The notes under the pieces: model-generated
Database searches by the model: none
The model's input: only the letters and a program-made list of their open reading frames with translations
Told to the model about the DNA's origin: nothing
Virus record (IMG/VR): IMGVR_UViG_3300008110_000127
Coordinates: 1 to 41,458 of that record
Source: a virus
DNA length: 41,458 nucleotides
Strand: one strand, 5' to 3'
In this document: positions 6,084 to 41,458 of the stretch, piece by piece
How positions within the stretch are numbered: the stretch's first letter is position 1
How the letters are laid out: every line of letters starts with the position of its first letter
Program-made: the position numbers and the translations under genes

Positions 6084-7597
6084 AGTCCTAGTTGTTGTAA
6101 CTGTTTGATTGTATTAGCAGTATTAGTGTGGAGTATACCTATACCACCTGCTGCTTCCCATTGGTCTATATTTTTTTGTCTATCATCTATTAGAATAGAG
6201 GTTGGAGAAGCATATTCCTGTTTTTGAGAGGCATATTTTAAAATAAGCTTTACACCAGGTAGTTCTCGTTTTACCCAAACTCTTTTACCTAATTTGGAAG
6301 ATTCTTCACGTGATGGGGCAGACAATAGTATTGGATTATATTTTTTGATATAGTCCCATAGTTGTTTTCCGTCTGGCATCCATTGTAGCGTAATCCAAAA
6401 TTTGGCTCCTGCTTTAGTGAGTGGTTCCCAAAATGCTTCTACTCCATTAGCATCTGCTTGTTGGCTAGTCATACCTGTTAATTCTTGATATCCACGATCA
6501 AAATCAACTAATACACTATCCATATCACAGTATATTGTGTATTCTGTTTCTTCTTCTCTTAAACGAGCTAATTCCATAGCATATGCGTTTAAGCCGAATG
6601 GATCTTTAGATTTCTTTTCTTGTAAACTATCGGTCCAATTTCTAAATGTCATTGTTCCGTTTAGATTAGCTTCTTGTTCTATTTTATCTAGATGGTCATC
6701 TTCTAATGTATTAGTTGTAGCCACATTGCCTAATCTACCTTCTAAATTTTGAATATGGTGGATCATTTCATGAGAAAATGATCGTACTATATCTTTGGGA
6801 TGACGACCTTCTGTATACAACACAATTTCCATAGCTTCTGGATTATAGTAAGCTGTTTTGCCTAGAAATTGTTTTGCATTTTCTTCATCTCCATGCTTGA
6901 ATATTACTTTAGGTAAAGGAACAATGTTCATCCCTTTATCTAGCATGTGTTTGGTTAATGCCTTAATTTTTTGCTTATAGTCAATGTGGTTAGAATATGA
7001 AGCATTTTCGTTTAATATTTCTTGTATTTTACCAGATACTATTTGATACACTTCTTGTTTTTCTTCAGGTGTTAGAACACTAGGTAGGAATGGTTCAAAT
7101 TTTTCAAGTGATACTTTAGAAGCATTTCTAGCAGCTGTACCTGATACTCCACCTTTGGTTATAATAGTTCTAGCCTCAATGTTAGGGTAGTTGGTTATAG
7201 ATTTGGTACGTGAGCTGATGTCTGTAAAATCTTGTTCATTGTCTTCTCTAGCACCTAAAATCCATAATATTTCTCTTGTAGGATGATCTTTTGCAAAATC
7301 ATATACTGCTTTGATTGGTGGTAAAGAACTAGGTTCTATTTTAACCTTAAATGGTAAGTATTTATTGTATATTTCCCAAATTAGTAAAGATTCATCTTGC
7401 GATACACCATCACGTTCTTTAGAACCTACAAAAATTATAAATTCTTCTATTTCTGGGTTTTGTCTAAGTGCTTCTTTAACTACCTCAAAGTGACCTGCTG
7501 TGGGGGGTTTAAAACCACCTGCATATAGTGCGGTGGTTTGTTTTTTTTCCTCTTCGGGTAAGAAGTTTTTAACTATTTCCTTTACTAGTGAATTCAT
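6080..7597 (-). CDS. Three-domain fusion: nucleotidylyltransferase, HExxH metalloprotease, HAD phosphatase
   Basis: 505 residues with three separate enzyme signatures. Residues 25-170 are a Rossmann nucleotidylyltransferase: GGFKPPTAGH (27-36) is the phosphate-binding/catalytic motif and GVSGTAARNA (150-159) the ISGTxxR-like second motif, as in NMN adenylyltransferase or cytidylyltransferase relatives. Residues ~200-325 carry SHEMIHHIQN, an HExxH zinc site (H276, E277, H280), with KIEQEAN (306-312) as a candidate third ligand. Residues 353-505 are HAD or 5'-nucleotidase-like: CDMDSVLVDFD (357-367, DxD nucleophile), LLSAPSR and ILIDDR (468-473). The start MNSLVKEIVKNFLPEEE could be a head-targeting helix, and LRE (346-348) lies just before the third domain. 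It abuts the kinase gene upstream (1-nt overlap). Substrates are not known. Confidence 0.8.
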   Translation of the reverse strand: MNSLVKEIVKNFLPEEEKKQTTALYAGGFKPPTAGHFEVVKEALRQNPEIEEFIIFVGSKERDGVSQDESLLIWEIYNKYLPFKVKIEPSSLPPIKAVYDFAKDHPTREILWILGAREDNEQDFTDISSRTKSITNYPNIEARTIITKGGVSGTAARNASKVSLEKFEPFLPSVLTPEEKQEVYQIVSGKIQEILNENASYSNHIDYKQKIKALTKHMLDKGMNIVPLPKVIFKHGDEENAKQFLGKTAYYNPEAMEIVLYTEGRHPKDIVRSFSHEMIHHIQNLEGRLGNVATTNTLEDDHLDKIEQEANLNGTMTFRNWTDSLQEKKSKDPFGLNAYAMELARLREEETEYTIYCDMDSVLVDFDRGYQELTGMTSQQADANGVEAFWEPLTKAGAKFWITLQWMPDGKQLWDYIKKYNPILLSAPSREESSKLGKRVWVKRELPGVKLILKYASQKQEYASPTSILIDDRQKNIDQWEAAGGIGILHTNTANTIKQLQQLGL

Positions 7598-8420: not shown

Positions 8421-8456
8421 AACCTTTATTTGAACTTCAACATTATAAATGTATGA

Positions 8457-28402: not shown

Positions 28403-29104
28403 TTAAAATTTAGCATATCCGTTTTCAAGATAAAAAACATAATTAATTTTAAAAATATCGTATAATTGATTAGATATTTTAGTTATTTTAGGAGTTTTTA
28501 CATCTATTATTTCTCTGATATAGATATAAAGGGCTTTTTTATTAAAAATTTCTAAATTTTCTCTATTTCTAAAAATTTCAAGTATTGCATCTGCTACCTG
28601 GGCATCATTCTTTTTGGGAAATAATTCAAATATGTTTTGGGTGCAATGTTCAACATATAAATCCAAATATTTATCTAGTTCGTTTTTGGAATTGTCTTCC
28701 ATAGTATAGAAATGAGAAGTACCTTCTTTGTCTAATTCACCAATTTCCGTTTTATTTACTTTTTTATTATAATTTTTAGTATTATATAGTATAAGCCATC
28801 TTTTAACAATAGTCCCAAAATATGAATATGCTTTAGCTCCTCTGGATGGATCAAATAGATGAATTTTAGATAATAAGAAGGTAATTATTTCATGTTGTAA
28901 ATGTTCTAATTCCTCTACTTCAGTATGGTAAAATTTAAAAGTATGGATTATATTTTGAGTTAATTTAAAAAAGGCATAGTGGATATGTCTCTCATATATC
29001 CTACTTCTCTCTTCAAAATCTTTTGAATTATTATATAATACAATATAATCTTCAGTTTCTTGAGTAAAATAATTCTTACTTTTTTTATTTCGTTTTTTTA
29101 TCAT
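28403..29104 (-). CDS. 55: Late sigma factor, T4 gp55-like
   Basis: 233 residues. The segment ELEHLQHEIITFLLSKIHLF and FDPSRGAKAYSYFGTIVKRW (84-103) is the conserved sigma-region-2-like core of gp55-type factors, which direct host RNA polymerase to the -10 box of late promoters together with a sliding clamp. No region 4 is seen, as expected for the gp55 group. The C-terminal tail YVFYLENGYAKF could be the clamp- or polymerase-contacting end. Its presence fits the repeated ATATTTATAA boxes, although T4 uses TATAAATA. Gene is 6 nt after the upstream stop codon. Confidence 0.82.
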   Translation of the reverse strand: MIKKRNKKSKNYFTQETEDYIVLYNNSKDFEERSRIYERHIHYAFFKLTQNIIHTFKFYHTEVEELEHLQHEIITFLLSKIHLFDPSRGAKAYSYFGTIVKRWLILYNTKNYNKKVNKTEIGELDKEGTSHFYTMEDNSKNELDKYLDLYVEHCTQNIFELFPKKNDAQVADAILEIFRNRENLEIFNKKALYIYIREIIDVKTPKITKISNQLYDIFKINYVFYLENGYAKF

Positions 29105-31468: not shown

Positions 31469-32272
31469 TTAATTAGCATACTCTAAAGCCTTAGAAAACA
31501 TCTTTTTGTTCAACTCCAAATCTTGTTGGAAGTTCTTGATTTTTCTAGCACTTCTAGATTTACCTTTAAGTGTTTGATAATCGAAATTTCCTTCAAGAAT
31601 ATTTTCTTGAATTCGATTAAACACTTTCCACAAATCAGTTCCCATATCTTGGTTTCTTTGAGGAGTCAAAATAGCTTCAATAGCATTAATATCGTATGTA
31701 TTTTTGCTATTTTCAACTCTTAGATCCAACAAATCTTTAGCTAAGGATACAATTTGATCTTGTTCCAATTCGGTGTTAACCATTTGATTCATTGCCTCTA
31801 CTGTTAGAGGAAGATTCTCAACCAATTTTTTGATTGTATCTTGCAATTTTTCAAAATCATAACCCATGTGACGAACCTTAATTTCATCAAACTGTTCAGT
31901 TGAAACAACCAAACCATTCTCACAAATCATTCTAAACAAACCTGCAGTAAAAACAAAGCTATTTTTACCATCGTGTGAATTAGTTAATAGAATTTGAGGG
32001 AAAACTGTATCATTATCTGCACCATTGATAACAACATCAGGATTTCTGAATACAACTAGGTGTTTTTGATAACCTGCATTTTTACGTGCTTTAACTTCTT
32101 TAGCATCTGCAACTCCCCATCCCAGAAGCTCCATATCTCGGATTACTCGGTCGGTAGGAATGTGAGAGTACTTTTCAGAAGTACCTTTAGCTCCATGATT
32201 TGTAAAAATTGAAGGAGCGATTGATCTAATTTGTTCAATAGTTTTGAACTCGGAATTTTGTAGATTTAACAT
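31469..32272 (-). CDS. DUF932-like phage protein
   Basis: 267 residues. The stretch LLGWGVADAKEVKARKNAGY, KHLVVFRNPDVVING, FPQILLTNSHDGKNSFVFTA, GLFRMICENGLVVS is the signature of the DUF932 family (plasmid/phage/defence-island associated, function unknown). The C-terminal half is helical (AIEAILTPQRN, DLWKVFNRIQENILEG). Normal length. It is transcribed alone from the cassette promoter at 32315-32345 and followed by the G6/C6 hairpin, so it is probably a strongly expressed early gene. Start box AATAAAAGTTATG. Confidence 0.8.
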   Translation of the reverse strand: MLNLQNSEFKTIEQIRSIAPSIFTNHGAKGTSEKYSHIPTDRVIRDMELLGWGVADAKEVKARKNAGYQKHLVVFRNPDVVINGADNDTVFPQILLTNSHDGKNSFVFTAGLFRMICENGLVVSTEQFDEIKVRHMGYDFEKLQDTIKKLVENLPLTVEAMNQMVNTELEQDQIVSLAKDLLDLRVENSKNTYDINAIEAILTPQRNQDMGTDLWKVFNRIQENILEGNFDYQTLKGKSRSARKIKNFQQDLELNKKMFSKALEYAN

Positions 32273-32314
32273 AACTTTTATTGTTTTTTATTGTTGTAAC
32301 CATTAACAACACCG

Positions 32315-32345
32315 TAAATATACGATAGGCTTCCTGCGGAGCCAA
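32315..32345 (-). promoter_or_regulatory. Early promoter cassette A (DUF932-like gene)
   Basis: Minus-strand TTGG (TTG at 32345-32343), exactly 20 nt, TATATTTAC (TA box 32322-32315), then GGTGTTG. The leader begins with a hairpin: TGTTGT/ACAACA arms at 32306-32311 and 32292-32297. It lacks the CGCGAA dyad, but at the same distance has a different near-palindrome, TTGAAAGCTCTCAA (32364-32377). Confidence 0.75.
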
Positions 32346-32448
32346 GTTGCCTGTGGAGTACTTTTGAAAGCTCTCAATAGCAATGCCAGCTTTACCACAC
32401 CACCCCCTCTTATCCGTATATACAATTCCCATTATTTTCAAAAATAAC

Positions 32449-32480
32449 TTGCCACCCCTAAAAAATATTATTATATTTAA
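32449..32480 (+). promoter_or_regulatory. Rightward host-type promoter
   Basis: Plus-strand TTG (32449-32451), exactly 20 nt, TATATTTAA (32472-32480), then an A-rich, hairpin-free leader to the ATG at 32521. It uses the same spacing as the leftward cassettes and faces away from promoter A, so 32273-32520 is a divergent control region. Confidence 0.7.
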
Positions 32481-32520
32481 ATCAAAAAACATACAAACAA
32501 ATAAAAAACATTTTATTTTT

Positions 32521-32667
32521 ATGAATGCATTATTAATCATAGGTTGGGCAACGTTGGCAACGTGGGCGATCCCAAACACTATTAAAGATGAAGAATTAAG
32601 ATATGGGATGAGGCTAGTACTAGGATCCATGTCAATTGGGGTATTAATTGGGGCTTTAGCTTTTTAG
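32521..32667 (+). CDS. Two-helix membrane peptide (48 aa)
   Basis: 48 residues with two hydrophobic segments (ALLIIGWATLATWAIP, then LVLGSMSIGVLIGALAF) joined by a charged turn (NTIKDEELRYG). The start is the ATG at 32521, preceded by AAAAAACATTTTATTTTT. The same leader phrase precedes the next gene, which settles this start over any farther upstream. First gene of the only rightward unit. Holin-like topology is possible, but nothing else supports lysis. Confidence 0.6.
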   Translation: MNALLIIGWATLATWAIPNTIKDEELRYGMRLVLGSMSIGVLIGALAF

Positions 32668-32688
32668 GAATAAAAAACATTTTATTTT

Positions 32689-32991
32689 ATGATTACGATA
32701 AAAAGTTTTCCACTGCAAAACTACACACGGCAAGTAGAAAAAGCCGTGGTTGTGTTTGGTTCCCCCACATGCCCCGCATGTAAAAAATTAAATGAAATTA
32801 TTGTTCCATTGCTTGAACAAGTCCACACGGATGTAGAATTTATGTTTCTGGATGGGGATAGATTTGAAAGTACTGCTGATTATTATGATATTGAATTTTA
32901 TCCCACCTTGGTTTATTTTGTAAGTGGGAAGGAAAAAGAAAGAGTACAATCTACGAATATAAAAGAAATTGAAAAAACTTTATTTAAATAA
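32689..32991 (+). CDS. Thioredoxin-like protein
   Basis: 100 residues with thioredoxin topology: VVVFGSPTCPACKKLNEIIV contains the redox pair C28-P-A-C31; FMFLDGDRFESTADYYDIEF and the cis-proline strand FYPTLVYF follow. Typical length for a phage thioredoxin or glutaredoxin. It probably reduces ribonucleotide reductase or other phage enzymes; the partner is not in this window. No signal peptide, so cytoplasmic. Leader AATAAAAAACATTTTATTTT matches that of the preceding gene. Confidence 0.85.
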   Translation: MITIKSFPLQNYTRQVEKAVVVFGSPTCPACKKLNEIIVPLLEQVHTDVEFMFLDGDRFESTADYYDIEFYPTLVYFVSGKEKERVQSTNIKEIEKTLFK

Positions 32992-32999
32992 AAAAAAAC

Positions 33000-33398
33000 A
33001 TGGCAACATTGGTATTAGTATTTACGTTAGGAGTTTCATTTGGGATGTTAGCTGTCCTAGGTATTGTCAAAGCAGCAGAAAAAGACTTTAATAGTGGACA
33101 AGATACTTTGGAAAGATCTTTAAAAGAGTTAGAAGTTGGTTTTAAACAACTGGATCAAAAATATCTAGATCTATATGTGGAGGTTGAACAAATGCGAACT
33201 ATCCTTAAGAACAATGGTTTTGAAAAAGATGTGGATATCCCCTCTACTTTACGTACCTTGAGTGAAAAGGTAGAAATTGTAAAATCAAATCAAGATTTTG
33301 ATAGAAAAACACAAGCTAAAGCTATTGGTAGTTTGGCTGATGATGTAAATAGAGTTAAAAAGTACGTAACACGTATTGCCTCTGGTAACGAATACTGA
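33000..33398 (+). CDS. Membrane-anchored coiled-coil protein
   Basis: 132 residues. An N-terminal hydrophobic helix (ATLVLVFTLGVSFGMLAVLG) is followed by ~105 residues of charged helix with heptads (LERSLKELEVGFKQLDQKYL, VEVEQMRTILKNN). The topology resembles i-spanins, but equally phage membrane scaffolds. It follows the thioredoxin-like gene by 8 nt and ends this module before the bidirectional terminator. Role unknown. Confidence 0.7.
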   Translation: MATLVLVFTLGVSFGMLAVLGIVKAAEKDFNSGQDTLERSLKELEVGFKQLDQKYLDLYVEVEQMRTILKNNGFEKDVDIPSTLRTLSEKVEIVKSNQDFDRKTQAKAIGSLADDVNRVKKYVTRIASGNEY

Positions 33399-33491
33399 TT
33401 TTTTTATATATTTTCCATACCCAAAAAGGTTTTTTTAAAAAAGAAGGTTGCCGCTTTATGTTTTTTTTCCAAAATGGGTAAAATGGAAAAA

Positions 33492-33517
33492 GGCCCCCTT
33501 TATGGGGGCCATTTTTT
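33492..33517. terminator. Bidirectional intrinsic terminator
   Basis: Perfect 7-bp stem GGCCCCC/GGGGGCC (33492-33498 and 33504-33510), loop TTTAT, followed by ATTTTTT on the plus strand and by TTTTT on the minus strand. It lies between the converging rightward module and the leftward early operon. Confidence 0.85.
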
Positions 33518-33529
33518 AAATAATGAGAT

Positions 33530-33752
33530 ATTTGTATATACTTGGTCGGGATGAAAGATTTTAGAAGCTGTGTTTGTTGTCCTACATCCTTTCTCCCGGC
33601 ACCCACGCATATATGGACACCTACGCGTATGGGCATATTTACATAATATATACGGTATACCGGCCAAATAATATATGCGTAAGTACGGACACAGGTAGGG
33701 GTACCCTATACGGAATACCCCATTTTAAAAATTACGGTTATGTGTGTTTATA
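33530..33752. other. Non-coding, palindrome-rich convergent gap
   Basis: No credible reading frame. It contains several short perfect palindromes within 100 nt: CATATATG (33608-33615), TACGCGTA (33622-33629), CGGTATACCG (33653-33662) and GGGTACCC (33699-33706), plus repeated TATACGG phrases. Composition differs from the surroundings (more C and G, CG dinucleotides). Function unknown; see findings. Confidence 0.5.
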
Positions 33753-33968
33753 TTATTTTATCTCAATATCCTCTTCTAGTATCACTACAGTCTCACCCTG
33801 GATATAACAGGCTTTGATTTGATTAAATTTTTCTAATGCTTCCTCCTCAGTATTAACTAAGGCTAAACATTGGCTACCCGCCCAAATAAAATACTTGGTT
33901 ACGATATCCATTTTACTAGTATCCCACCTTGTTTCTTTCTCGATTTTAAATTTCATATAGCTGTTCAT
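33753..33968 (-). CDS. Small hypothetical early protein (71 aa)
   Basis: MNSYMKFKIEKETRWDTSKM, then YFIWAGSQCLALVNTEEEAL and a strand-rich end (IQGETVVILEEDIEIK). Alpha/beta, no family recognised. Start box AATAAGTTATG, a variant lacking one G. Last gene of the unit driven by cassette B and followed by the palindrome-rich gap. Confidence 0.6.
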   Translation of the reverse strand: MNSYMKFKIEKETRWDTSKMDIVTKYFIWAGSQCLALVNTEEEALEKFNQIKACYIQGETVVILEEDIEIK

Positions 33969-33987
33969 AACTTATTATTTTATTATT

Positions 33988-34263
33988 CTATTCTACGTTG
34001 AATATCATTTCTGATAAAGCCATTTTATAGCTGGTTCTTTGATTCATCATATCATATGAGTACAAACTAACATACTGTTTAGTTACCTTATCTATGTTCA
34101 TTGTGGAACCGAATAACTCAGCTCTACCAATGGAATAAGATGTATCTCTAGAATATGTAAACATATATGTTTTATATTCTATACCTTTGTATGTGAATGG
34201 GATACCAGATTCTAATGTTCCATTATTATACTTACCTACAAAATTAAATTCAATACCGTTCAT
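33988..34263 (-). CDS. Small hypothetical early protein (~91 aa)
   Basis: MNGIEFNFVGKYNNGTLESG and a run of beta strands (GIEYKTYMFTYSRD, AELFGSTMNIDKVTKQYVSL), probably a small beta-barrel. An ATG 6 nt upstream is part of the box AATAATGGTTATG, so the start is taken as the ATG at 34263. Eight nt after the 34272 gene. Function unknown. Confidence 0.6.
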   Translation of the reverse strand: MNGIEFNFVGKYNNGTLESGIPFTYKGIEYKTYMFTYSRDTSYSIGRAELFGSTMNIDKVTKQYVSLYSYDMMNQRTSYKMALSEMIFNVE

Positions 34264-34271
34264 AACCATTA

Positions 34272-34628
34272 TTATTTTATAAGTTTAACCTTTGGATTAT
34301 TCACTAATGATATTTTAACAACATTATGACCATATTGTGTATGTTTAACAGCACCAAACTGCTTTAACAACGGATAATACTTGGTATAATTTAGATGAAG
34401 ATCATATATAACAATAGATTTCTTATATACATAAACATGAATATATGGATCTGTACCTACATAAAATGTATCCTTAGGTAACCATGGATTATCCTGGAAT
34501 CCAATCCAACAATCTCTAACTACTAATACATTATCCTCACTCTCAACTATACTACCTTCACTCCATTTCCATTCCCCAAGGATGAATATTCTGGGATCGC
34601 ATGTACTCAATTCTGTATTCAATTCCAT
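34272..34628 (-). CDS. Small hypothetical early protein (~118 aa)
   Basis: MELNTELSTCDPRIFILGEW, strand-rich with many W and Y (KWSEGSIVE, VLVVRDCWIGFQDNPWLPKD, YIHVYVYKKSIVIYDLHLNY). No family recognised. First gene after cassette B. Its leader contains the start box twice: AATAAAGGTTATA without a start codon, then AATAAAATGGTTATG with the start at 34628. Confidence 0.6.
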   Translation of the reverse strand: MELNTELSTCDPRIFILGEWKWSEGSIVESEDNVLVVRDCWIGFQDNPWLPKDTFYVGTDPYIHVYVYKKSIVIYDLHLNYTKYYPLLKQFGAVKHTQYGHNVVKISLVNNPKVKLIK

Positions 34629-34689
34629 AACCATTTTATTTTATATTATATAACCTTTATTTAATGTACGTTATTTAAATAACAACACG

Positions 34690-34720
34690 TAAATCTACGA
34701 ACAAATCCTCAGGTCTCCAA
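34690..34720 (-). promoter_or_regulatory. Early promoter cassette B
   Basis: Minus-strand TTGG (TTG 34720-34718), 20 nt, TAGATTTAC (box 34697-34690), then GTGTTG. The -33 box sits in an inverted repeat CCTCA...TGAGG. The leader starts with the perfect palindrome GTTATTTAAATAAC (34670-34683). No CGCGAA dyad; the matching position holds only CAACAAATGGTTAATA. Confidence 0.75.
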
Positions 34721-34770
34721 GCAAGACGCATGAGGCTTTCAACAAATGGTTAATATGTTTTTTGAAAATT

Positions 34771-34878
34771 TTACAAAAACATTAAAAAAATTACAGTTAA
34801 AATAAAAAGAACGCCACTTATTAAAGCAACTTTTTCAGAAAATTCAATTTGTTTTTGTCTTTTTGTTTGGTTTTCCAT
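34771..34878 (-). CDS. Single-pass membrane micropeptide (35 aa)
   Basis: Found by reading the minus strand: ATG at 34878, TAA at 34771. The product is a basic head (MENQTKRQKQIEFSEKVA) and a hydrophobic helix (LISGVLFILTVIFLMFL). The clear polar/hydrophobic division argues for a real gene. TATATTTAAT, a good -7 box, lies about 20 nt upstream, though no TTG stands 20 nt before it. Function unknown. Confidence 0.45.
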   Translation of the reverse strand: MENQTKRQKQIEFSEKVALISGVLFILTVIFLMFL

Positions 34879-35170
34879 TTTTTTACATATAAATTAAATA
34901 TAACTTTGCAAATTCAACAATTGGCACACGTGAGCATCTTTCTTATTTGCAATTTTTATATGTGTTTTTTGCAAATAGTGCAATTCGTGTATATATTTTG
35001 CTTCTCAATCAGAGTTTATTGGCAAGCAATAAATGTTGGTTAGTAATCAATACCTCTCCCCCCCTATACCACATATACTCCATTCCACATACTATCGCTA
35101 TTCCATTATCCATCCACTATAACACACACCATTTATTCCCCCCGTTTATAGTGTTGGACACACGTTGTTA
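34879..35170. other. Gene-free gap with TTGCAAAT repeats
   Basis: No convincing gene on either strand. It holds several copies of TTTGCAA/TTGCAAAT (around 34909, 34949, 34969), and the phrase TTTGCAAATTCAACAATT also occurs, with one change, beside cassette C at ~37101. TTGGCAAGCAA near 35020 resembles part of the cassette spacer. It may be a decayed cassette. Confidence 0.4.
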
Positions 35171-35449
35171 CTACACACCCTCATTAAACGCATCATATAG
35201 CTCCACCCAATTAACATTATCAATATCAATTCCATCATTCACCCGTACAATATAATTTTCCATTGTTTCATATAGGTGATTAGCATCTGTTGAACGAGTA
35301 GCTCGACGATACATTAGCTCATCATCCGTTATCCAATTGTAGGTATTCCACGTATCCCAATTGGTCCATCCGTTGTATGTTGTTGTGGTTGTTGTAGTGT
35401 TAGTGTTATTCATATCTGGATTTATTATCGTTATTATTTCTCCCCCCAT
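35171..35449 (-). CDS. Conserved small phage protein (NWDTWN motif, DUF7249-like)
   Basis: 92 residues. The core TYNGWTNWDTWNTYNWITDD, then ELMYRRA, matches the small phage family with a (N/G)WTN..TW....WI..DE signature (I believe DUF7249; not checked). A short Thr run (NTNTTTTTTT) precedes it. Two starts are possible: the ATG at 35449 overlaps the upstream stop as TAATG, and an ATG at 35413 gives a protein starting MNNTN. Function unknown. Confidence 0.65.
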   Translation of the reverse strand: MGGEIITIINPDMNNTNTTTTTTTYNGWTNWDTWNTYNWITDDELMYRRATRSTDANHLYETMENYIVRVNDGIDIDNVNWVELYDAFNEGV

Positions 35450-35688
35450 TATAGCTGCTTTAGTTTATAGCCTTCGGGTTCGGGAGCATTATGTTCTACA
35501 TTAGCTGCATCCCATCCCTTATACCATGCTTTCATTATATCCATAGCAAGTTCTTGAGGCATATCATCAATATTACTATCTAATAATTTCATAGCTCTAG
35601 AATCATCAAAGAATGCTCGCTTTAATCCTTTATTGAATGCCTTATCACCTAAATGAGTAGCTAACCAAATTTTATCTTTACTTTCCAT
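35449..35688 (-). CDS. Small hypothetical early protein (79 aa)
   Basis: MESKDKIWLATHLGDKAFNK, then KRAFFDDSRAMKLLDSNID, ELAMDIMKAWYKGWDAANVE and a short tail. All-helical; the AWYKGWDAAN segment is reminiscent of small phage helical proteins. One-base overlaps on both sides show translational coupling. Function unknown. Confidence 0.6.
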   Translation of the reverse strand: MESKDKIWLATHLGDKAFNKGLKRAFFDDSRAMKLLDSNIDDMPQELAMDIMKAWYKGWDAANVEHNAPEPEGYKLKQL

Positions 35689-35876
35689 TAGAATCTTAGT
35701 TTACCTTGATTATTATCCTTTGGTTCCGATTTAGTAATAGAAGCTACTGCCCATACCTCCCCAATCATTATAATAAGTGAAAGAATAGGATTAACATTAT
35801 ATCCAATCCAAACCAAAGTTCCTATATTAATAGTTGTAAATACTATTAGAAGTGTTGTTATTGTTAGTCTGTTCAT
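35688..35876 (-). CDS. Small two-helix membrane protein (62 aa)
   Basis: MNRLTITTLLIVFTTINIGT and NPILSLIIMIGEVWAVASIT are two hydrophobic segments, followed by a hydrophilic tail (KSEPKDNNQGKLRF). Preceded by AATAAATAATAATATG rather than the GGTTATG box. It may insert in the host inner membrane; no function known. Confidence 0.6.
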   Translation of the reverse strand: MNRLTITTLLIVFTTINIGTLVWIGYNVNPILSLIIMIGEVWAVASITKSEPKDNNQGKLRF

Positions 35877-35898
35877 ATTATTATTTATTTATCTAAAT

Positions 35899-36183
35899 TT
35901 AATCTCTATATAAAAACATTGAAAAATCTACTTCAATACCTTTTTGTTTTCTAATTACATATTGGATATTCCAAAATGCCTTGTATACATGGCCTGCATG
36001 TTCAGGATTAGATGAATATTTAGTTCTCCACATATACTCACCACCACTCATTCTATGAGAATTCAATAACCATAATTGATCTCCCTTGATAAGACGATTT
36101 ACTATTTTATTTTGAGCGGGAGTGAATTTAACATCCTTTACCAATTCTGTAAATTGTTCTAAATTCAATGTTGTATGAGCCAT
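35899..36183 (-). CDS. Small hypothetical early protein (94 aa)
   Basis: MAHTTLNLEQFTELVKDVKF, then TPAQNKIVNRLIKGDQLWLL, GGEYMWRTKYSSNPEHAGHV and YKAFWNIQYVIRKQKGI. A helix pair with a winged-helix-like feel (NRLIKG...) but no clear family. Start box AATAAAGGTTATG. Confidence 0.6.
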   Translation of the reverse strand: MAHTTLNLEQFTELVKDVKFTPAQNKIVNRLIKGDQLWLLNSHRMSGGEYMWRTKYSSNPEHAGHVYKAFWNIQYVIRKQKGIEVDFSMFLYRD

Positions 36184-36198
36184 AACCTTTATTATTTA

Positions 36199-36507
36199 TT
36201 ATTTTTGAACTACTTTAAGAAATGGTTTAAAATCTGTTTTATATTCATTACTTAGATTAGCCATATTAATCATAGTATCAATAAACGATTTTTTAGCAAA
36301 TGTCATATCTGAACTACCAAATCCCTGATCTTCAGGCCAATCTTCAAAATCTGATATAACATCACTTAGTGCCACATATATAGCATCTGTTATTGTAACT
36401 TCTCTACCACTCCACTTACTAATAACTGGGAATGCTTTTTCGATAATATCGTATCCTTCTATTTGTCTAGCGGATAAAACTGAGGTTAAATTGAATGGTA
36501 ATGCCAT
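36199..36507 (-). CDS. Small hypothetical early protein (102 aa)
   Basis: MALPFNLTSVLSARQIEGYD, then FPVISKWSGREVTITDAIYV, FEDWPEDQGFGSSDMTFAKK and a helical end. Acidic in the middle. No family recognised. Start box AATAATAAAAGTTATG. Fifteen nt before the next start in the cassette C unit. Confidence 0.6.
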   Translation of the reverse strand: MALPFNLTSVLSARQIEGYDIIEKAFPVISKWSGREVTITDAIYVALSDVISDFEDWPEDQGFGSSDMTFAKKSFIDTMINMANLSNEYKTDFKPFLKVVQK

Positions 36508-36515
36508 AACTTTTA

Positions 36516-36758
36516 TTATTTATTTAAGGTTGAATTATTCATTACTGTATCTAAAATGATATTGTATGCATCTACTGTATCATATCCTTGTCTGTCATAA
36601 AATGAAATAATATCTCCTATACTATTACACTTGTTAACTTCATTTTCTACACCCTTAACATACAATTCAAATTCCTCTTCTTGTAATACATCCCCCCAAA
36701 TAGATAATGAGGTTTCGCTTTTAATAATTAACTCTTTTAATTCATCAAATGTTATCAT
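36516..36758 (-). CDS. Small hypothetical early protein (80 aa)
   Basis: MITFDELKELIIKSETSLSI, acidic and helical (EEEFELYVKGVENEVNK, then DRQGYDTVDAYNIILDTVMN). No family recognised. Start box AAATAAAGGTTATG. Acidic small early proteins often bind and inhibit host enzymes, but nothing specific supports that here. Confidence 0.6.
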   Translation of the reverse strand: MITFDELKELIIKSETSLSIWGDVLQEEEFELYVKGVENEVNKCNSIGDIISFYDRQGYDTVDAYNIILDTVMNNSTLNK

Positions 36759-36774
36759 AACCTTTATTTTTTAT

Positions 36775-36963
36775 TTAATTATATCTTTGCATTATAATAT
36801 CTGCAAACGCATAAAACTGATCAAAATCATCCTCTCTCATTAATGCTACTGCACTTTGGAATTCTAATATAAATGCATCTCGTTTTGGTGTATCATCTCC
36901 TAATTCAAGATCATCTGCTAAATTGATAATTTCTTCTAGTGCTTGTTTTTCAAATTTTGTCAT
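36775..36963 (-). CDS. Small acidic early protein (62 aa)
   Basis: MTKFEKQALEEIINLADDLE, then RDAFILEFQSAVALMREDDF and DQFYAFADIIMQRYN. All-helical, strongly acidic. First gene after cassette C; start box TAATAAAGGTTATG. No family recognised. Confidence 0.6.
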   Translation of the reverse strand: MTKFEKQALEEIINLADDLELGDDTPKRDAFILEFQSAVALMREDDFDQFYAFADIIMQRYN

Positions 36964-37027
36964 AACCTTTATTATATTATAATGTTAAATAATTATTTAC
37001 GTTTCGTTAACCTGTAACTCAACAATG

Positions 37028-37058
37028 TAAATCTACGAACGATTTTTTGCTTCTCCAA
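37028..37058 (-). promoter_or_regulatory. Early promoter cassette C
   Basis: Minus-strand TTGG (TTG 37058-37056), 20 nt, TAGATTTAC (box 37035-37028), then ATTGTTG. The -33 box lies in the inverted repeat TTGCTT-GGAG-AAGCAA. The leader has a 4-bp hairpin (GTTA/TAAC, 37006-37018). Drives the run from 36963 to 35171. Confidence 0.8.
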
Positions 37059-37077
37059 GCAAGTAACAAGGAACATT

Positions 37078-37093
37078 CGCGAAACAGTTCGCG
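37078..37093. promoter_or_regulatory. Upstream dyad CGCGAA-ACAG-TTCGCG (cassette C)
   Basis: Perfect 6-bp inverted repeat with 4-bp centre, starting exactly 19 bp upstream of the TTG. Also framed by CAAGGA/TCCTTG (37067-37072 and 37097-37102). Probable regulator or activator site, or an RNA hairpin at the end of the upstream transcript. Confidence 0.7.
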
Positions 37094-37132
37094 CGCTCCT
37101 TGCAAATACAACAATTTAGCTTAAGTACTTTG

Positions 37133-37375
37133 TTAGTCCCACCACATATTACCAATTCTATCCCATTCCCTACTTCGTGTAAGAGTAGCTTTGTGTAGTG
37201 TATTATAATCTACTTGTGACTCTGATCCCGGATACTCTCTCTTTAGTTTCTTCTTGAATTCTACTAAATTCTCAGCCCATATATCATTGAACCCTCCGCT
37301 CTTCCAATTGAAGAGGTATCGGTATTGTCCTCGATAGTTCTTTAGTAACGGTTCTCTTTTATTTTGCTTTAACAT
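37133..37375 (-). CDS. Small hypothetical early protein (80 aa)
   Basis: Start at the ATG in AATAAAGGTTATG (37375), giving MLKQNKREPLLKNYRGQYRY, LFNWKSGGFNDIWAENLVEF, KKKLKREYPGSESQVDYN and a WDRIGNMWWD end. An in-frame TTG farther upstream lies inside the leader and is rejected. Basic, Trp-rich, alpha/beta. Unknown function. Confidence 0.6.
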   Translation of the reverse strand: MLKQNKREPLLKNYRGQYRYLFNWKSGGFNDIWAENLVEFKKKLKREYPGSESQVDYNTLHKATLTRSREWDRIGNMWWD

Positions 37376-37407
37376 AACCTTTATTTTTATATTCAATTAT
37401 TTACCAA

Positions 37408-37746
37408 TTATTTTTTCCACTCCTCATCATCTTCATTTATGAACATACCTGGACCTGGATGCTCATCAATCCCCATTTCCCATAGAAAATTATCCTTATC
37501 CAATTCAATAGGTTCGCTAAATATAAACTCCCAATCAATCAAAGTATACTTAGAATGACTGTTACAATAATCATACAATAGGTTTTCGATAGCCTTCTCC
37601 ACCTCACCAGGAGCAGCAAACATAACAGGATTGGGATCTACTCCCTTGATAATAAACTCGGTACCACCTTTTGGTTTCCAATATGGAGTATCATTGTCAC
37701 TATAATTTTCATAATACTGCGCTGTAATTCTGATATCTGCTTTCAT
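37408..37746 (-). CDS. Small hypothetical early protein (112 aa)
   Basis: MKADIRITAQYYENYSDNDT, then WKPKGGTEFIIKGVDPNPVM, EVEKAIENLLYDYCNSHSKY, TLIDWEFIFSEP and GIDEHPGPGMFINEDDEEW. The N-terminal ITAQYYENY...WK.KGG.EF phrase looks like a small conserved phage family. First gene after cassette D; start box AAATAAAGGTTATG. Confidence 0.65.
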   Translation of the reverse strand: MKADIRITAQYYENYSDNDTPYWKPKGGTEFIIKGVDPNPVMFAAPGEVEKAIENLLYDYCNSHSKYTLIDWEFIFSEPIELDKDNFLWEMGIDEHPGPGMFINEDDEEWKK

Positions 37747-37817
37747 AACCTTTATTTTATATATGTTAAATGATATAATACTATTGATTTAATACGTCAT
37801 AACTCAAATCAACAATG

Positions 37818-37848
37818 TAAATCTACGAACGATTTTTACGAAAGCCAA
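37818..37848 (-). promoter_or_regulatory. Early promoter cassette D
   Basis: Minus-strand TTGG (TTG 37848-37846), 20 nt, TAGATTTAC (box 37825-37818), then ATTGTTG. CGAAAG/CTTTCG arms flank the -33 region. The leader hairpin has 7-bp arms TTGATTT/AAATCAA (37806-37812 and 37784-37790). Confidence 0.8.
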
Positions 37849-37867
37849 ATTTTGCGCATGGAACTTT

Positions 37868-37883
37868 CGCGAAACAGTTCGCG
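37868..37883. promoter_or_regulatory. Upstream dyad CGCGAA-ACAG-TTCGCG (cassette D)
   Basis: Identical to the cassette C dyad, again exactly 19 bp upstream of TTG. It ends 3 nt before the stop codon of the upstream gene. Confidence 0.7.
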
Positions 37884-37886
37884 CGT

Positions 37887-38162
37887 TTATTGAACACTTT
37901 GCAATAATTGAATTCGTTCCATTCCAACAGTTACGTCTTCTTCTCTAAGATAACCAATAACACCATCTGCTACAGGAGTATCATATACTACATCCCCATC
38001 ACTATCTATTACTGCTAATTCATATAAACCCATTTTACCACCATAGGAATAATTACTTTTTACTATACTAGCTCCATATCCATTTTCAAACATAATGCTA
38101 GCTCTAATACCTCCTATGTGATTAGGATGTTCTACAAATTCTAAATCTTTAAATGTTTTCAT
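37887..38162 (-). CDS. Small hypothetical early protein (91 aa)
   Basis: Start taken at the ATG at 38162 (MKTFKDLEFVEHPNHIGGIR), which has AAAGGATAATAAT before it; an in-frame TTG 24 nt upstream overlaps the neighbouring gene and is less likely. ASIMFENGYGASIVKSNYSY and ELAVIDSDGDVVYDTPVADG suggest a small beta-sheet protein; similar V.H....G..A...F.NGYG phrases occur in phage proteins of unknown function. Confidence 0.65.
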   Translation of the reverse strand: MKTFKDLEFVEHPNHIGGIRASIMFENGYGASIVKSNYSYGGKMGLYELAVIDSDGDVVYDTPVADGVIGYLREEDVTVGMERIQLLQSVQ

Positions 38163-38166
38163 ATTA

Positions 38167-38403
38167 TTATCCTTTATATCGTTCAATCATTTTGTACATA
38201 AAACGAGGTAAGCAATCATCATCTTCACTATCGTTTTCTACGATCGTATATTGTTCACCAATGATAGATTGTAACTGAGATTCATCTACTCGTCTCCAAT
38301 AACCAAATCTAAGGAATGGTGTATTATTACCGCCCCAAACTCTATCTATAGTGAATGGACCAAATGTTTTTTCTAATGTGTCTAATGTTTCTTTATTTAA
38401 CAT
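38167..38403 (-). CDS. Small hypothetical early protein (78 aa)
   Basis: MLNKETLDTLEKTFGPFTID, RVWGGNNTPFLRFGYWRRVD, then an acidic stretch (ENDSEDDDCLPRF) and MYKMIERYKG. No family recognised. First gene after cassette E; start box AATAATAAAGGTTATG. Confidence 0.6.
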   Translation of the reverse strand: MLNKETLDTLEKTFGPFTIDRVWGGNNTPFLRFGYWRRVDESQLQSIIGEQYTIVENDSEDDDCLPRFMYKMIERYKG

Positions 38404-38433
38404 AACCTTTATTATTTAATTTTTATTCTATAG

Positions 38434-38450
38434 TATAACACCGTGTTATA
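38434..38450. promoter_or_regulatory. Palindrome TATAACACCGTGTTATA in leader E
   Basis: Perfect 8-bp arms around one base. The same 17-mer occurs in leader F (40030-40046). Between TSS and start box, so either an operator or a second leader hairpin (on the minus strand TATAACAC-G-GTGTTATA). Confidence 0.6.
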
Positions 38451-38480
38451 CCATGCGTACGCTTTAAACGTACAACAGCG

Positions 38481-38511
38481 TAAATCTACGAACGCTTCCT
38501 CAGTTCTCCAA
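38481..38511 (-). promoter_or_regulatory. Early promoter cassette E
   Basis: Minus-strand TTGG (TTG 38511-38509), 20 nt, TAGATTTAC (box 38488-38481), then GCTGTTG. First leader hairpin GTACG/CGTAC (38457-38461 and 38469-38473), then the palindrome at 38434-38450. Drives 38403 to 37887. Confidence 0.8.
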
Positions 38512-38530
38512 CAAAATCACATGGAACTTT

Positions 38531-38546
38531 CGCGAAACAGTTTGCG
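38531..38546. promoter_or_regulatory. Upstream dyad variant CGCGAA-ACAG-TTTGCG (cassette E)
   Basis: Same position (19 bp from TTG) as in C and D, with one base change that breaks one pair of the dyad. Confidence 0.6.
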
Positions 38547-38590
38547 TGTTTCTTGAAATTACTTCAAAAAAATATAAAAAAATTGTTAGT

Positions 38591-38770
38591 TTAAATTTTA
38601 CTTACTAAAGTTTTGTCAACAGGATACGCAGTACCTTCTTCTGTTCTACAGACATAGTAAGTTCTTTTTACTGATCCATATTCCACTTCTCTAATCTCTT
38701 CAAATACACCTATGTGGATCGTTCCTGCGAATGGAAATCGCACTTTATCTCCTTTTTTTAGTTTAGACAT
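38591..38770 (-). CDS. Small SH3/KOW-like early protein (59 aa)
   Basis: Read directly: ATG at 38770, TAA at 38591. MSKLKKGDKVRFPFAGTIHI, GVFEEIREVEYGSVKRTYYV, CRTEEGTAYPVDKTLV is a five-strand pattern with the KKGDKVRF opening typical of KOW/SH3-like barrels. Its start overlaps the stop of the 46-residue gene upstream (13 nt), so it is translated as part of the chain 39201 to 38591. Ligand unknown. Confidence 0.65.
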   Translation of the reverse strand: MSKLKKGDKVRFPFAGTIHIGVFEEIREVEYGSVKRTYYVCRTEEGTAYPVDKTLVSKI

Positions 38771-38898
38771 TTTATTTTTACTACTTTATTCCCTTTTAGT
38801 ATTAACCATCCACCTTTTTTATTCCCCGCTACATGATAACCTTTTATATCATTTAGAGCAGCGTATATAACTGCCTGATCATATTCTTTAAATATCAT
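38758..38898 (-). CDS. Small hypothetical early protein (46 aa)
   Basis: ATG at 38898, TAA at 38760. MIFKEYDQAVIYAALNDIKG, then YHVAGNKKGGWLILKGNKVV and a short end. Alpha/beta, with a basic GNKKGGWLILKGN hairpin. It overlaps the genes on both sides, which supports translation. Function unknown. Confidence 0.5.
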   Translation of the reverse strand: MIFKEYDQAVIYAALNDIKGYHVAGNKKGGWLILKGNKVVKIKCLN

Positions 38899-39040
38899 CT
38901 AACACCCATTTTAGTACATTAATTTTTTCATTCGCTACCAATATAGCAATATCTCCCTCGGTAGGATTTTCTCTCTTAATTTGTGAAATCCAATTCTCTA
39001 ATTCTACAATCAATAGTATAATATCTCTTTCAGTCCTCAT
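38888..39040 (-). CDS. Small hypothetical helical protein (50 aa)
   Basis: ATG at 39040, TAA at 38890. MRTERDIILLIVELENWISQ, IKRENPTEGDIAILVANEKI and NVLKWVLDDI: a helical hairpin. Eleven-base overlap with the next gene and 2-nt spacing to the upstream stop. Function unknown. Confidence 0.5.
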   Translation of the reverse strand: MRTERDIILLIVELENWISQIKRENPTEGDIAILVANEKINVLKWVLDDI

Positions 39041-39042
39041 AT

Positions 39043-39201
39043 TTAGCTCTTTAGTCGTTCCCTAAAAATATGTTCAAACGTTTCATTAAATCCATAATCT
39101 CCCCTAACAGTATACTTTACACCTTTAGGTTTTAGATCACCATCACGATTAATTTTTCCGGAATTAATGTTAAATACTTTTCGAATAATATCAGTAACCA
39201 T
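39043..39201 (-). CDS. Small hypothetical basic protein (52 aa)
   Basis: ATG at 39201, TAA at 39045. MVTDIIRKVFNINSGKINRD, GDLKPKGVKYTVRGDYGFNE and TFEHIFRERLKS. Basic and compact; the middle reads like a beta hairpin. It lies 30 nt after the coiled-coil gene stop. Function unknown. Confidence 0.5.
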   Translation of the reverse strand: MVTDIIRKVFNINSGKINRDGDLKPKGVKYTVRGDYGFNETFEHIFRERLKS

Positions 39202-39231
39202 AGTTTTTTATATTTTAGTTTTAAATTAATA

Positions 39232-39999
39232 TTAAGCTAATACTTCTTTTGGAGCTAGTAGATTAGAATATCTAATAATAAATCTTTCTAAATGCATCAA
39301 TCTAACAGTTGCTGTAGTAAAATCTTCATCTCTATGACCAATATATTTTACAACTACTGATTTATTTTTAGTAGATAACAACTTAATATAAGAAAGATAT
39401 CTAGATTCTTTATTATTGATATCTAATGTTGCAAATTGATCCATTTTGAAATGTACTCCTTCTTTAAGTATATCATACATTTCCTCTTTTTCAATTTCTC
39501 TTAGAGATAATTTTAGTTCACGTAATTCTTTTTCTAGAATACCTATTTCACGATAAACCTCTTCGGTTTCATTACTACGATTTTTCATTAGAATATTCCA
39601 ACCTGAAAGAATATCACTTTTATTATCAAGTAACATTTGACCTACTTTACCAATAATAACCATTCTATTCAATTCAAAATCACCACTTGTATTTGTAGAA
39701 TAGAAAGAAGTTGAAATAACTCTCTCTTTTTCTTCCCCAAAAGAATAGGATGGCATATGAATTCTAAAACTAACCAATTCTTCTCTATAGATACCATCTC
39801 TTAGAGCACAAATTGTAAATGTATCATATGCATACCTCAAAAAATACTCTTCAGATACGATATTATGTTGGTATAGAAATGGAGTAATAAATGCAGATTC
39901 TAGATCTTGATAAGTTTTATTAATAATCTCTACTTTCTGATCTAGAAATGATATTTTCTGTTTTACTTCTTGGATTTGATTTTCAATTACACTTTTCAT
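39232..39999 (-). CDS. Coiled-coil early protein (~255 aa)
   Basis: The largest gene of the early region. With start at 39999 (MKSVIENQIQEVKQKISFLD) it opens with a coiled coil. A central alpha/beta part follows (EEYFLRYAYDTFTICALRDG, IYREELVSFRIHMPSY), then a second long coiled coil (EEVYREIGILEKELRELKLS). The end is basic (SVVVKYIGHRDEDFTTATVR). I do not recognise the family. First gene after cassette F; an ATG 6 nt upstream belongs to the box AATAATGGTTATG. Confidence 0.65.
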   Translation of the reverse strand: MKSVIENQIQEVKQKISFLDQKVEIINKTYQDLESAFITPFLYQHNIVSEEYFLRYAYDTFTICALRDGIYREELVSFRIHMPSYSFGEEKERVISTSFYSTNTSGDFELNRMVIIGKVGQMLLDNKSDILSGWNILMKNRSNETEEVYREIGILEKELRELKLSLREIEKEEMYDILKEGVHFKMDQFATLDINNKESRYLSYIKLLSTKNKSVVVKYIGHRDEDFTTATVRLMHLERFIIRYSNLLAPKEVLA

Positions 40000-40029
40000 A
40001 ACCATTATTATTTATTTTTTATTATATAA

Positions 40030-40046
40030 TATAACACCGTGTTATA
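40030..40046. promoter_or_regulatory. Palindrome TATAACACCGTGTTATA in leader F
   Basis: Identical to 38434-38450. It lies downstream of the first leader hairpin TTGAGC/GCTCAA (40063-40068 and 40051-40056) and upstream of the start box. Confidence 0.6.
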
Positions 40047-40073
40047 TCAATTGAGCCTAAACGCTCAACACTG

Positions 40074-40104
40074 TAAATCTACGCTGAATTCCTCAGGAAA
40101 CCAA
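40074..40104 (-). promoter_or_regulatory. Early promoter cassette F
   Basis: Minus-strand TTGG (TTG 40104-40102), 20 nt, TAGATTTAC (box 40081-40074), then AGTGTTG. The -33 box lies between CCTC and GAGG arms. Drives the five genes from 39999 to 38591. Confidence 0.8.
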
Positions 40105-40123
40105 GCAAGACACGAGGAGCATT

Positions 40124-40139
40124 CGCGAAACAGTTCGCG
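40124..40139. promoter_or_regulatory. Upstream dyad CGCGAA-ACAG-TTCGCG (cassette F)
   Basis: Identical to C and D, again exactly 19 bp upstream of TTG. Confidence 0.7.
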
Positions 40140-40168
40140 CGCTCTTTGCAGGTCTTTCAAACAGAATT

Positions 40169-40432
40169 TTATTTTTTCCATTCGTCATACCCGTAATCTA
40201 AAGCCTTCAAATAGTTAGTGATGGTTAGATTATCTTCTCCACCTCTCAATGCTGCTTCTACTTGCAAGTATCTATAAGCAAATTCCATTACTTCGTACAA
40301 TACACTATCCTCATCTGCACTCCCTACTATATAATCAAATGTTGATTGATATTCAGGAAATTCATCTACTAATTTGTGTTTAAATAACCAAAACCATTCT
40401 TGTAAGTTATTTTCTGCAGTTTGTTGTGTCAT
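40169..40432 (-). CDS. Small hypothetical early protein (87 aa)
   Basis: MTQQTAENNLQEWFWLFKHK, then LVDEFPEYQSTFDYIVGSAD, DSVLYEVMEFAYRYLQVEAA and an acidic helical end. No family recognised. Its start overlaps the upstream stop by 4 nt (ATGA), so translation is coupled. Last gene of the cassette G unit. Confidence 0.6.
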   Translation of the reverse strand: MTQQTAENNLQEWFWLFKHKLVDEFPEYQSTFDYIVGSADEDSVLYEVMEFAYRYLQVEAALRGGEDNLTITNYLKALDYGYDEWKK

Positions 40433-40653
40433 AGTTTTTCTAGTTCTTCTTTTACATATTCCATAAACAATAAATTAAGATTTACTTTCCATTCATCATC
40501 TTCTGAAGAATTATTTTTTCTATTTTTTAATAGGGTAATTACTTCATCTATTGATATTAATGCACATTTCTTTGCTGTATATTCATCAATATATCCTTGA
40601 AAAGTATAAAGTATCATATTATACAATTCTTCCGCTTTTTCTTTAGGTATCAT
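40429..40653 (-). CDS. Small conserved-looking early protein (74 aa)
   Basis: Start at the ATG at 40653: MIPKEKAEELYNMILYTFQG, YIDEYTAKKCALISIDEVIT, then LLKNRKNN and a helical end. A TTG 15 nt upstream would add Met-Lys-Ser-Lys-Asn but is a weaker start. PKEKAEEL...A...A.I..DEII is a pattern I know from many phage genes of unknown function. Confidence 0.65.
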   Translation of the reverse strand: MIPKEKAEELYNMILYTFQGYIDEYTAKKCALISIDEVITLLKNRKNNSSEDDEWKVNLNLLFMEYVKEELEKL

Positions 40654-40657
40654 ATTT

Positions 40658-40945
40658 TTAGACTTCAAGAACTGTGTTTACAAATGGAATAATATTATTT
40701 GAAATGTAGTATTGCATCTTAGCTACGTCTTCATGTGTTTTTTTAGATGCACAATTAAGACAAACTAAATCATATCTGGATTGATGATATTCAATTGAAT
40801 TATCATTTCTACTATCACCTCCTTTTGGTACCAAATATATTCTTCCATTTCCTTCCCCACTATCAATTTCATATTCCGGAAAATTATCATTTACGTACTG
40901 ATAGAATCGGGAATTGATTTGTCTTTTAATTTCAGTTTTGTTCAT
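40658..40945 (-). CDS. Small hypothetical early protein (95 aa)
   Basis: MNKTEIKRQINSRFYQYVND, then EIDSGEGNGRIYLVPKGG, EYHQSRYDLVCLNCASKKTH and a helical end. One C-x-x-C (CLNC) is present, too little for a firm zinc claim. Start box AAATAAAGGTTATG. Function unknown. Confidence 0.6.
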   Translation of the reverse strand: MNKTEIKRQINSRFYQYVNDNFPEYEIDSGEGNGRIYLVPKGGDSRNDNSIEYHQSRYDLVCLNCASKKTHEDVAKMQYYISNNIIPFVNTVLEV

Positions 40946-40963
40946 AACCTTTATTTTTTTATA

Positions 40964-41152
40964 TTAATATTCAATAATTTGATCAGTTGGAATAAGGAAT
41001 GATTCTGTTCCTTCTTCTTTACCATCTAATATAACGATGGCGTGTCTTTTTGAATCTGTTTTACCTATATATCTAAATGTAGTTCTAATGTTACCATAGT
41101 AACTAACATGTATATAATTCTTATCTACTACTAATTCATCTAATTTTTTCAT
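40964..41152 (-). CDS. Small beta-rich early protein (62 aa)
   Basis: MKKLDELVVDKNYIHVSYYG, NIRTTFRYIGKTDSKRHAIV, then ILDGKEEGTESFLIPTDQII. The strand pattern suggests a small SH3-like or OB-like barrel. Start at 41152 within AATAATGGTTATG. First gene after cassette G. Confidence 0.6.
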   Translation of the reverse strand: MKKLDELVVDKNYIHVSYYGNIRTTFRYIGKTDSKRHAIVILDGKEEGTESFLIPTDQIIEY

Positions 41153-41181
41153 AACCATTATTTTTGTTTAAATCAACAATG

Positions 41182-41212
41182 TAAATCTACGAACAAAAAA
41201 GCCGAAAGCCAA
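41182..41212 (-). promoter_or_regulatory. Early promoter cassette G
   Basis: Minus-strand TTGG (TTG 41212-41210), 20 nt, TAGATTTAC (box 41189-41182), then ATTGTTG. The leader is short (hairpin TTGTT/AACAA, 41175-41179 and 41164-41168). The -33 box is the loop of a perfect hairpin (next entry). Drives 41152 to 40169. Confidence 0.8.
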
Positions 41213-41221
41213 GCTTTCGGC
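41201..41221 (-). terminator. Perfect hairpin plus T run overlapping promoter G
   Basis: Minus-strand GCCGAAAGC-TTG-GCTTTCGGC followed by TTTTTTG: a textbook intrinsic terminator for the upstream gene, whose loop is the TTG of cassette G's -33 box. Terminator and promoter share bases. Confidence 0.75.
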
Positions 41222-41231
41222 GGGGAACTTT

Positions 41232-41247
41232 CGCTAAGCAGTTTGCG
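41232..41247. promoter_or_regulatory. Upstream dyad variant CGCTAA-GCAG-TTTGCG (cassette G)
   Basis: Same position (19 bp from TTG) as the other four dyads, with three base changes from the perfect form and weaker symmetry. Confidence 0.55.
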
Positions 41248-41272
41248 CGCTTATTGAAAATCTTGCAACTAT

Positions 41273-41458
41273 TTATTGAAAATTTATATAATCTGCTTTT
41301 ATGGCATCATTTACTTCTTTATTTAGTAATTCTAATTCAGATACCAAACTCTTTAAAAACTCCTGTGACCATAATCCCCAAGTTCTACTATCATTTTCAG
41401 CGAAATAATAGAATCCATCTACTTTAACAAATTCACCTACTATAATACCGTTTGATTT
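41273..41458 (-). CDS. Hypothetical protein, C-terminal end only
   Basis: An open frame enters from the right edge and stops with TAA at 41275, giving 61 residues: SNGIIVGEFVKVDGFYYFAE, NDSRTWGLWSQEFLKSLVSE, LELLNKEVNDAIKADYINFQ. The N-terminus is outside the window. It ends in a helix rich in E and L. It is followed by the dyad and hairpin of cassette G. Function unknown. Confidence 0.6.
   Translation of the reverse strand, partial: KSNGIIVGEFVKVDGFYYFAENDSRTWGLWSQEFLKSLVSELELLNKEVNDAIKADYINFQ

Follow-up and report, generated by a model that had tools for sequence, protein, structure and literature searches.

The seven copies of a composite element that recur on the minus strand of IMG/VR record IMGVR_UViG_3300008110_000127 (here 'the window', the whole stretch of 41,458 nucleotides that was analysed) are probably strong early promoters, read by the host RNA polymerase and carried on recombining, PeSL-like cassettes in a marine T4-like myovirus that infects Bacteroidota. 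PeSLs are promoter early stem-loop cassettes of T4-like phages, reportedly the subject of work by Arbiol et al. in 2010 and Comeau et al. in 2014. Support for this reading comes from the excess of the pattern over shuffled sequence (seven copies vs. 0.015), the placement of TTG at -23 in three sets of sites (61/65, 98/98 and 24/24), the strand bias in ten related records, a core found in 68 viral vs. 7 cellular stretches, a different box (TATTTATA) before the structural genes of Flavobacterium phage immuto, leader hairpins (16/22 vs. 3.1 expected), reassorted cassette halves, and a -33/-7 layout like that of Flavobacterium johnsoniae promoters (PMC6847099), with the T4 early promoters serving as model (PMC2988021). 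It is weakened by the lack of G at -5 (0/67), by nested terminators being a minority and by immuto-type sites that have no leader hairpin.

In the proposed mechanism, modelled on T4 early promoters, host RNA polymerase with its primary sigma factor would contact two elements, TTG(G) at -33 and TAnATTTA at -7, across a constant distance of 20 nt. Initiation would follow 4-5 nt past the -7 box, which puts the predicted 5' end at TGTTG or just within it, and each copy would turn on a few small genes as a short unit. A hairpin at or beside the 5' end would open most window-type transcripts and probably protects them from decay. The intergenic cassette would hold the promoter core, with some copies also ending the upstream unit by a stem-loop, and because the cassettes are alike, recombination between them may add, remove and re-pair gene blocks, as proposed for PeSLs.

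Sequence and spacing of the seven sites

On the minus strand the sites read TTGG, 19 nt, TA(G/T)ATTTAC, one or two bases and TGTTG, with the first T of the TA box at plus-strand coordinates 32322, 34697, 37035, 37825, 38488, 40081 and 41189. All are intergenic, and each heads, in the coding direction, a unit of one to seven small genes, which bears out the separate small transcription units proposed in the earlier note on this DNA; the gene starts given there agree with the ORF starts, save for two-codon start ambiguities. Copy 1 (32307-32345), which carries the TATATTTAC variant, heads the DUF932 gene (31469-32272), copy 2 (34683-34720) ORFs 34634 to 33753, copy 3 (37020-37058) ORFs 36963 to 35171, copy 4 (37810-37848) ORFs 37746 to 37133, copy 5 (38473-38511) ORFs 38403 to 37887, copy 6 (40066-40104) ORFs 40005 to 38591, and copy 7 (41174-41212; TTGG-N19-TAGATTTAC-AT-TGTTG) ORFs 41158 to 40169. 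Three plus-strand ORFs lie between copies 1 and 2 (32383-33398), and the plus-strand ORF at 32689-32991 has a thioredoxin-like look from its CPAC motif.

The gap from TTGG to TA is 19 nt, i.e. the previously claimed 20 nt from TTG to TA, in all seven sites, and a gap scan of the window returned these seven at 19 with stray single pairings at 18 and 25. TTGG-N19-TAKATTTAC occurs seven times, always on the minus strand, whereas 200 dinucleotide shuffles had a mean of 0.015 and never more than 1. TAKATTTAC-N(1-2)-TGTTG also occurs seven times, and 0 times in the 200 shuffles; all the composite copies listed earlier are thus present, far above the density of 20-nt spaced matches in shuffled sequence. 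Site 34697 has a single base between TAC and TGTTG where the other six have two, so the full pattern with NNTGTTG after the box fits six of the seven. The third base of the -7 box is G in six copies, and in 6/7 copies likeness reaches about 60 nt upstream of TTGG. An Rfam scan of the window gave no match.

Phage identity and spread of the family

No near-DNA match to the window was found among phage records. Its baseplate wedge protein and its DUF932 protein are 46.9% and 42.4% identical to their counterparts in Flavobacterium phage immuto, a 160-kb myovirus whose record annotates T4-type gp20, gp23, sheath and tube, and judged from these proteins the window represents a fragment of an immuto-related, T4-like myovirus.

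In the spacing searches TTG was omitted from the query and its offset read afterwards. Among viral contigs TTCGTAKATTTACNNTGTTG matched 68 stretches, and TTG stood at -23 in 61 of 65 distinct window-type sites and GG at -21 and -20 in 65 and 64 of them. The immuto form, TATATTTAGGTATCAATAATTA, gave 98 distinct sites, every one with TTG at -23; these site counts overstate independence because the sites share descent, and cluster representatives were used in the folding tests. In the complete immuto genome TTG lies at -23 in 24/24 gene-proximal TA(T/C/A)(A/C)TTTA(G/C) boxes, all of which sit 19-39 nt upstream of a start codon. The TTCGTAKATTTACNNTGTTG core was found in 7 stretches of bacterial and archaeal genomes (257 Gb), in none of them with TTGG in place. 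Across ten related records the pattern counts fell nearly all on one strand, with few in the reversed-pattern control. The spacing therefore recurs in both window-type and immuto-type sites, and the spacers, as the earlier note remarked of the window copies, vary widely in sequence whilst their length stays constant, here across phages whose proteins are about 42-47% identical.

Two minor observations concern single sites. Near 7490 on the plus strand of L075, a Paludibacteraceae MAG contig, the core has TTG, not TTGG, at the same offset, through chance or a prophage. The box TAAATTTAC is palindromic, and in sites that carry it (G001:C1:96337-96368, G002:C1:9604-9635 and G004:C1:1185-1216, minus strand) the leader hairpin gives an other-strand TTG at the right distance, and with it an apparent divergent match.

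Leader hairpins, nested stem-loops and the upstream block

In 16 of 22 distinct leader clusters of the window type, TGTTG forms the 5' arm of a hairpin with a folding energy no higher than -3 kcal/mol; shuffling the rest of the leader gives an expectation of 3.1 of 22. Folding returned no leader hairpin with a TGTTG arm in immuto-type leaders, nor in a few short window-type leaders. A role for TGTTG as third promoter box, the part given to it earlier, was ruled out since immuto-type sites without TGTTG keep the spacing; the motif is better explained as the 5' arm of a hairpin in the leader, at the predicted start. In the window (minus strand) leader hairpins follow copy 1 (32292-32311; TGTTGT...ACAACA, with the fold of the relative L123 8958), copy 2 (34670-34683; GTTATTTAAATAAC, from sequence), copy 3 (37004-37025; weak, from the fold of the identical leader in L120 17929), copy 4 (37784-37812; TTGATTT...AAATCAA, with the fold of the close relative L120 19143), copy 5 (38457-38473; GTACG-TTTAAAG-CGTAC, from sequence and fold, then the palindrome ATAACACGGTGTTAT), copy 6 (40051-40068; TTGAGC-GTTTAG-GCTCAA, from the fold, identical in L120 16337) and copy 7 (41164-41179; TTGTT-GATTTA-AACAA, weak, from the fold of the identical leader in L120 15217). 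The palindrome, at 38430-38450 and 40030-40050 on the minus strand, also occurs in the leaders of several units and in relatives, past the first hairpin.

Copy 7 contains an intrinsic-terminator-like stem-loop, GCCGAAAGC-TTG-GCTTTCGGC plus a T run (41191-41224, minus strand; sequence and folds), nested around its TTGG and recurring in the relative L122, where it scored best. Strong nested terminator stems were present in 11% of window-type clusters (6% in shuffles) and 18% of immuto-type clusters (4% in shuffles). A stem-loop joined to the promoter was clear in the copy at 41189 and a minority of relatives, moderate stems showed no general enrichment, and the nested terminator was rejected as a general rule, being a trait of a minority of copies only.

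Six window copies share a 66-nt gapless block that ends at TTGG (-85 to -20; gapless alignment of 38 sites, minus strand), at 41209-41274 in copy 7, at 40101-40166, 38508-38573, 37845-37910 and 37055-37120 in copies 6 to 3 and, more weakly, at 34717-34782 in copy 2. The block is absent from copy 1 and from immuto-type sites, where the -33 element, the spacing and the -7 box persist. Its central 6-bp hairpin has modest pair support, RNAalifold on the block gave no pairs and no consensus fold, and its outer stem was no better than slid controls, so that a conserved RNA structure of the whole block was rejected and only the central hairpin is left as possible.

Putative early and late boxes

In immuto the early-type boxes stand mainly before small ORFs, and also before DksA-like, endolysin and DUF932 genes, whilst the terminase, portal, sheath, tube and tape-measure genes are preceded by TATTTATA instead, 12-76 nt upstream. 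From this division it is reasonable to infer, by analogy with T4 (PMC2988021), an early timing of the TTG-N20-TA-box promoters. Among enriched intergenic 8-mers TATTTATA ranks first in immuto and in G001, a relative, and is one of the highest in the window (minus strand, e.g. 28388, 11004 and 8421); it occurs throughout NC_055915 and is a likely late promoter.

The minus-strand gene at 28403-29104 adjoins structural genes and encodes an unannotated 233-aa protein, the only sigma-like protein recognised in the window. Its N-terminal half aligns with sigma domain 2, with a PF04542 match below cut-off; its structural model has a mean pLDDT of 57, and among the 50 matches listed for it nearly all were sigma domain 2 (best Z 10.0). 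A PDB sequence search with the protein gave no match. Its identity is 45-46% with immuto gp118 and 72-100% with proteins of many marine viral contigs, and we regard it as a candidate gp55-like late sigma factor. At 8453 on the minus strand TTTGG, a GGAGGAGC-GAAA-GCTCCTTC hairpin, TACATTTAT and AATGTTG follow one another, combining early-like spacing with a late-like box.

The -7 box and what may read it

Promoters of the Bacteroidota primary sigma factor have the form TTTG / TAnnTTTG; those of F. johnsoniae show a -33/-7 layout with a weak -33 and a start 4-5 nt past the box, a nearly invariant G at -5, and G virtually absent at the third and fourth base (PMC6847099). The phage sites resemble them in TTG near -33, in TAnnTTT at -7 and in an intergenic position close to a gene, but differ in having A for G at -5 (of 67 gene-proximal phage sites 64 have A, 3 have T and 0 have G), in their strong -33 and invariant 20-nt spacer, and in the G at the third base of most window copies. 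The match of the -7 part to TAnnTTTG that had been claimed does not hold, the actual box being TAnnTTTA with the G of host promoters replaced. Through the A at -5 and the third-base G the phage boxes depart from a strict host consensus, and with G at -5 in none of the 67 sites they are not filed as canonical members of the primary-sigma class. T4 early promoters also go beyond the host consensus while using host polymerase (PMC2988021). Like them, the sites described here are many, dispersed and near-identical, have conserved bases beyond the basic elements and head small, putatively early gene units of a T4-like phage, differing in host sigma and box sequences and in an early timing that is assigned here by analogy (PMC2988021).

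A phage-supplied or phage-modified factor, such as an injected or early-made sigma or polymerase-binding protein, that read the promoters in place of the plain host holoenzyme would account both for the consistent A at -5 and for the rigidity of the spacing. The preponderance of A (64/67, G in 0) where F. johnsoniae has its nearly invariant G, the weakness of -33 in that host (PMC6847099) and the near confinement of the core to viruses would suit such a factor, which we nevertheless consider unlikely, as TTG at -33 and TAnnTTT at -7 are host elements, T4 early promoters surpass the host consensus with host polymerase (PMC2988021), and the sole recognised sigma-like protein (28403-29104), adjoining structural genes and matched in domain 2 only, fits late promoters better. 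Equally doubtful is a distinct early class, TTG-N20-TAnATTTA(C/G), that would avoid the host's G at -5, with a phage-carried or phage-modified specificity factor, a 5' hairpin on the transcripts and the core as exchange joint for gene modules, while a separate gp55-like sigma would read TATTTATA as late promoters.

A primary role of the copies in binding or recombination (as signals for replication, packaging or homing), with a secondary likeness to promoters, would agree with repeats running at least 60 nt upstream and with copies marking exchange points. This is very unlikely, however, given that each of the window copies precedes a gene unit, in coding direction, that 24/24 immuto copies are found 19-39 nt before a start codon, and that copy 1 and the immuto-type sites, without the upstream block, keep -33, spacing and -7. 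Slighter still is the chance that the fixed spacing reflects recent common ancestry of duplicated intergenic DNA without functional constraint: within the window clade homology is clear for the upstream halves and for some of the leaders, yet the TTG-TA spacers differ widely at constant length across phages with such divergent proteins. The A at -5 raises a direct question about -7 box recognition by the Bacteroidota primary sigma. In the literature searched no study turned up that maps the promoter classes of T4-like phages infecting Bacteroidota, and promoters are not mentioned in the paper on Baltic Flavobacterium phages (PMC7077304).

Cassettes and proposed gene exchange

Upstream halves, leaders and downstream genes occur in differing combinations among six related records, some of them short fragments, and suggest shuffling. 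Behind one and the same upstream half, the gene that begins MTKFEKQ carries leader L2 in the window and leader L0 in G002. Leader L0 is found before four gene families, L1 before three and L2 before four, one family call having a doubtful start; a promoter-plus-f25 unit is present in G001, G003 and G004 and absent from the window and G002; and the unit map of G009 is strongly reordered. The dispersed, uniform early regulon of the earlier note is supported in part, as a promoter-like family with a rigid spacer, whilst 'uniform' overlooks what look like recombining cassettes of the PeSL kind.

Gene-block shuffling has been proposed at the PeSL cassettes of T4-like phages (PMC4503421). As far as can be checked through a citing paper (PMC4503421), the window sites are PeSL-like cassettes: they bound reassorted gene modules in the six records, they lie in a T4-like myovirus (the immuto relative), and each holds a promoter-like core with fixed spacing and putative early activity. 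The likeness covers a probable early promoter in intergenic cassettes that are dense in a plastic region of small genes, signs that gene blocks have been shuffled at these cassettes, and, in some copies, stem-loops; the differences are a Bacteroidota -33/-7 grammar in place of the sigma-70 one, a stem-loop clear only in a subset, and the 5' leader hairpin and 60-nt upstream block added by the window clade. This is not a wholly new kind of cassette because PeSLs have been described in other T4-like phages. The composite early promoters would form a widespread family at joints where phages swap small-gene blocks, a sign that PeSL-style shuffling also runs on a different promoter grammar, and they offer a testable early class, with a candidate late class, across many marine phages, as well as strong promoter candidates for Flavobacterium genetics. 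Throughout 32000-41458 on the minus strand, AATAAAGGTTATG or AATAATGGTTATG stands before gene starts with GG very near the start codon, in a phage whose hosts are SD-poor.
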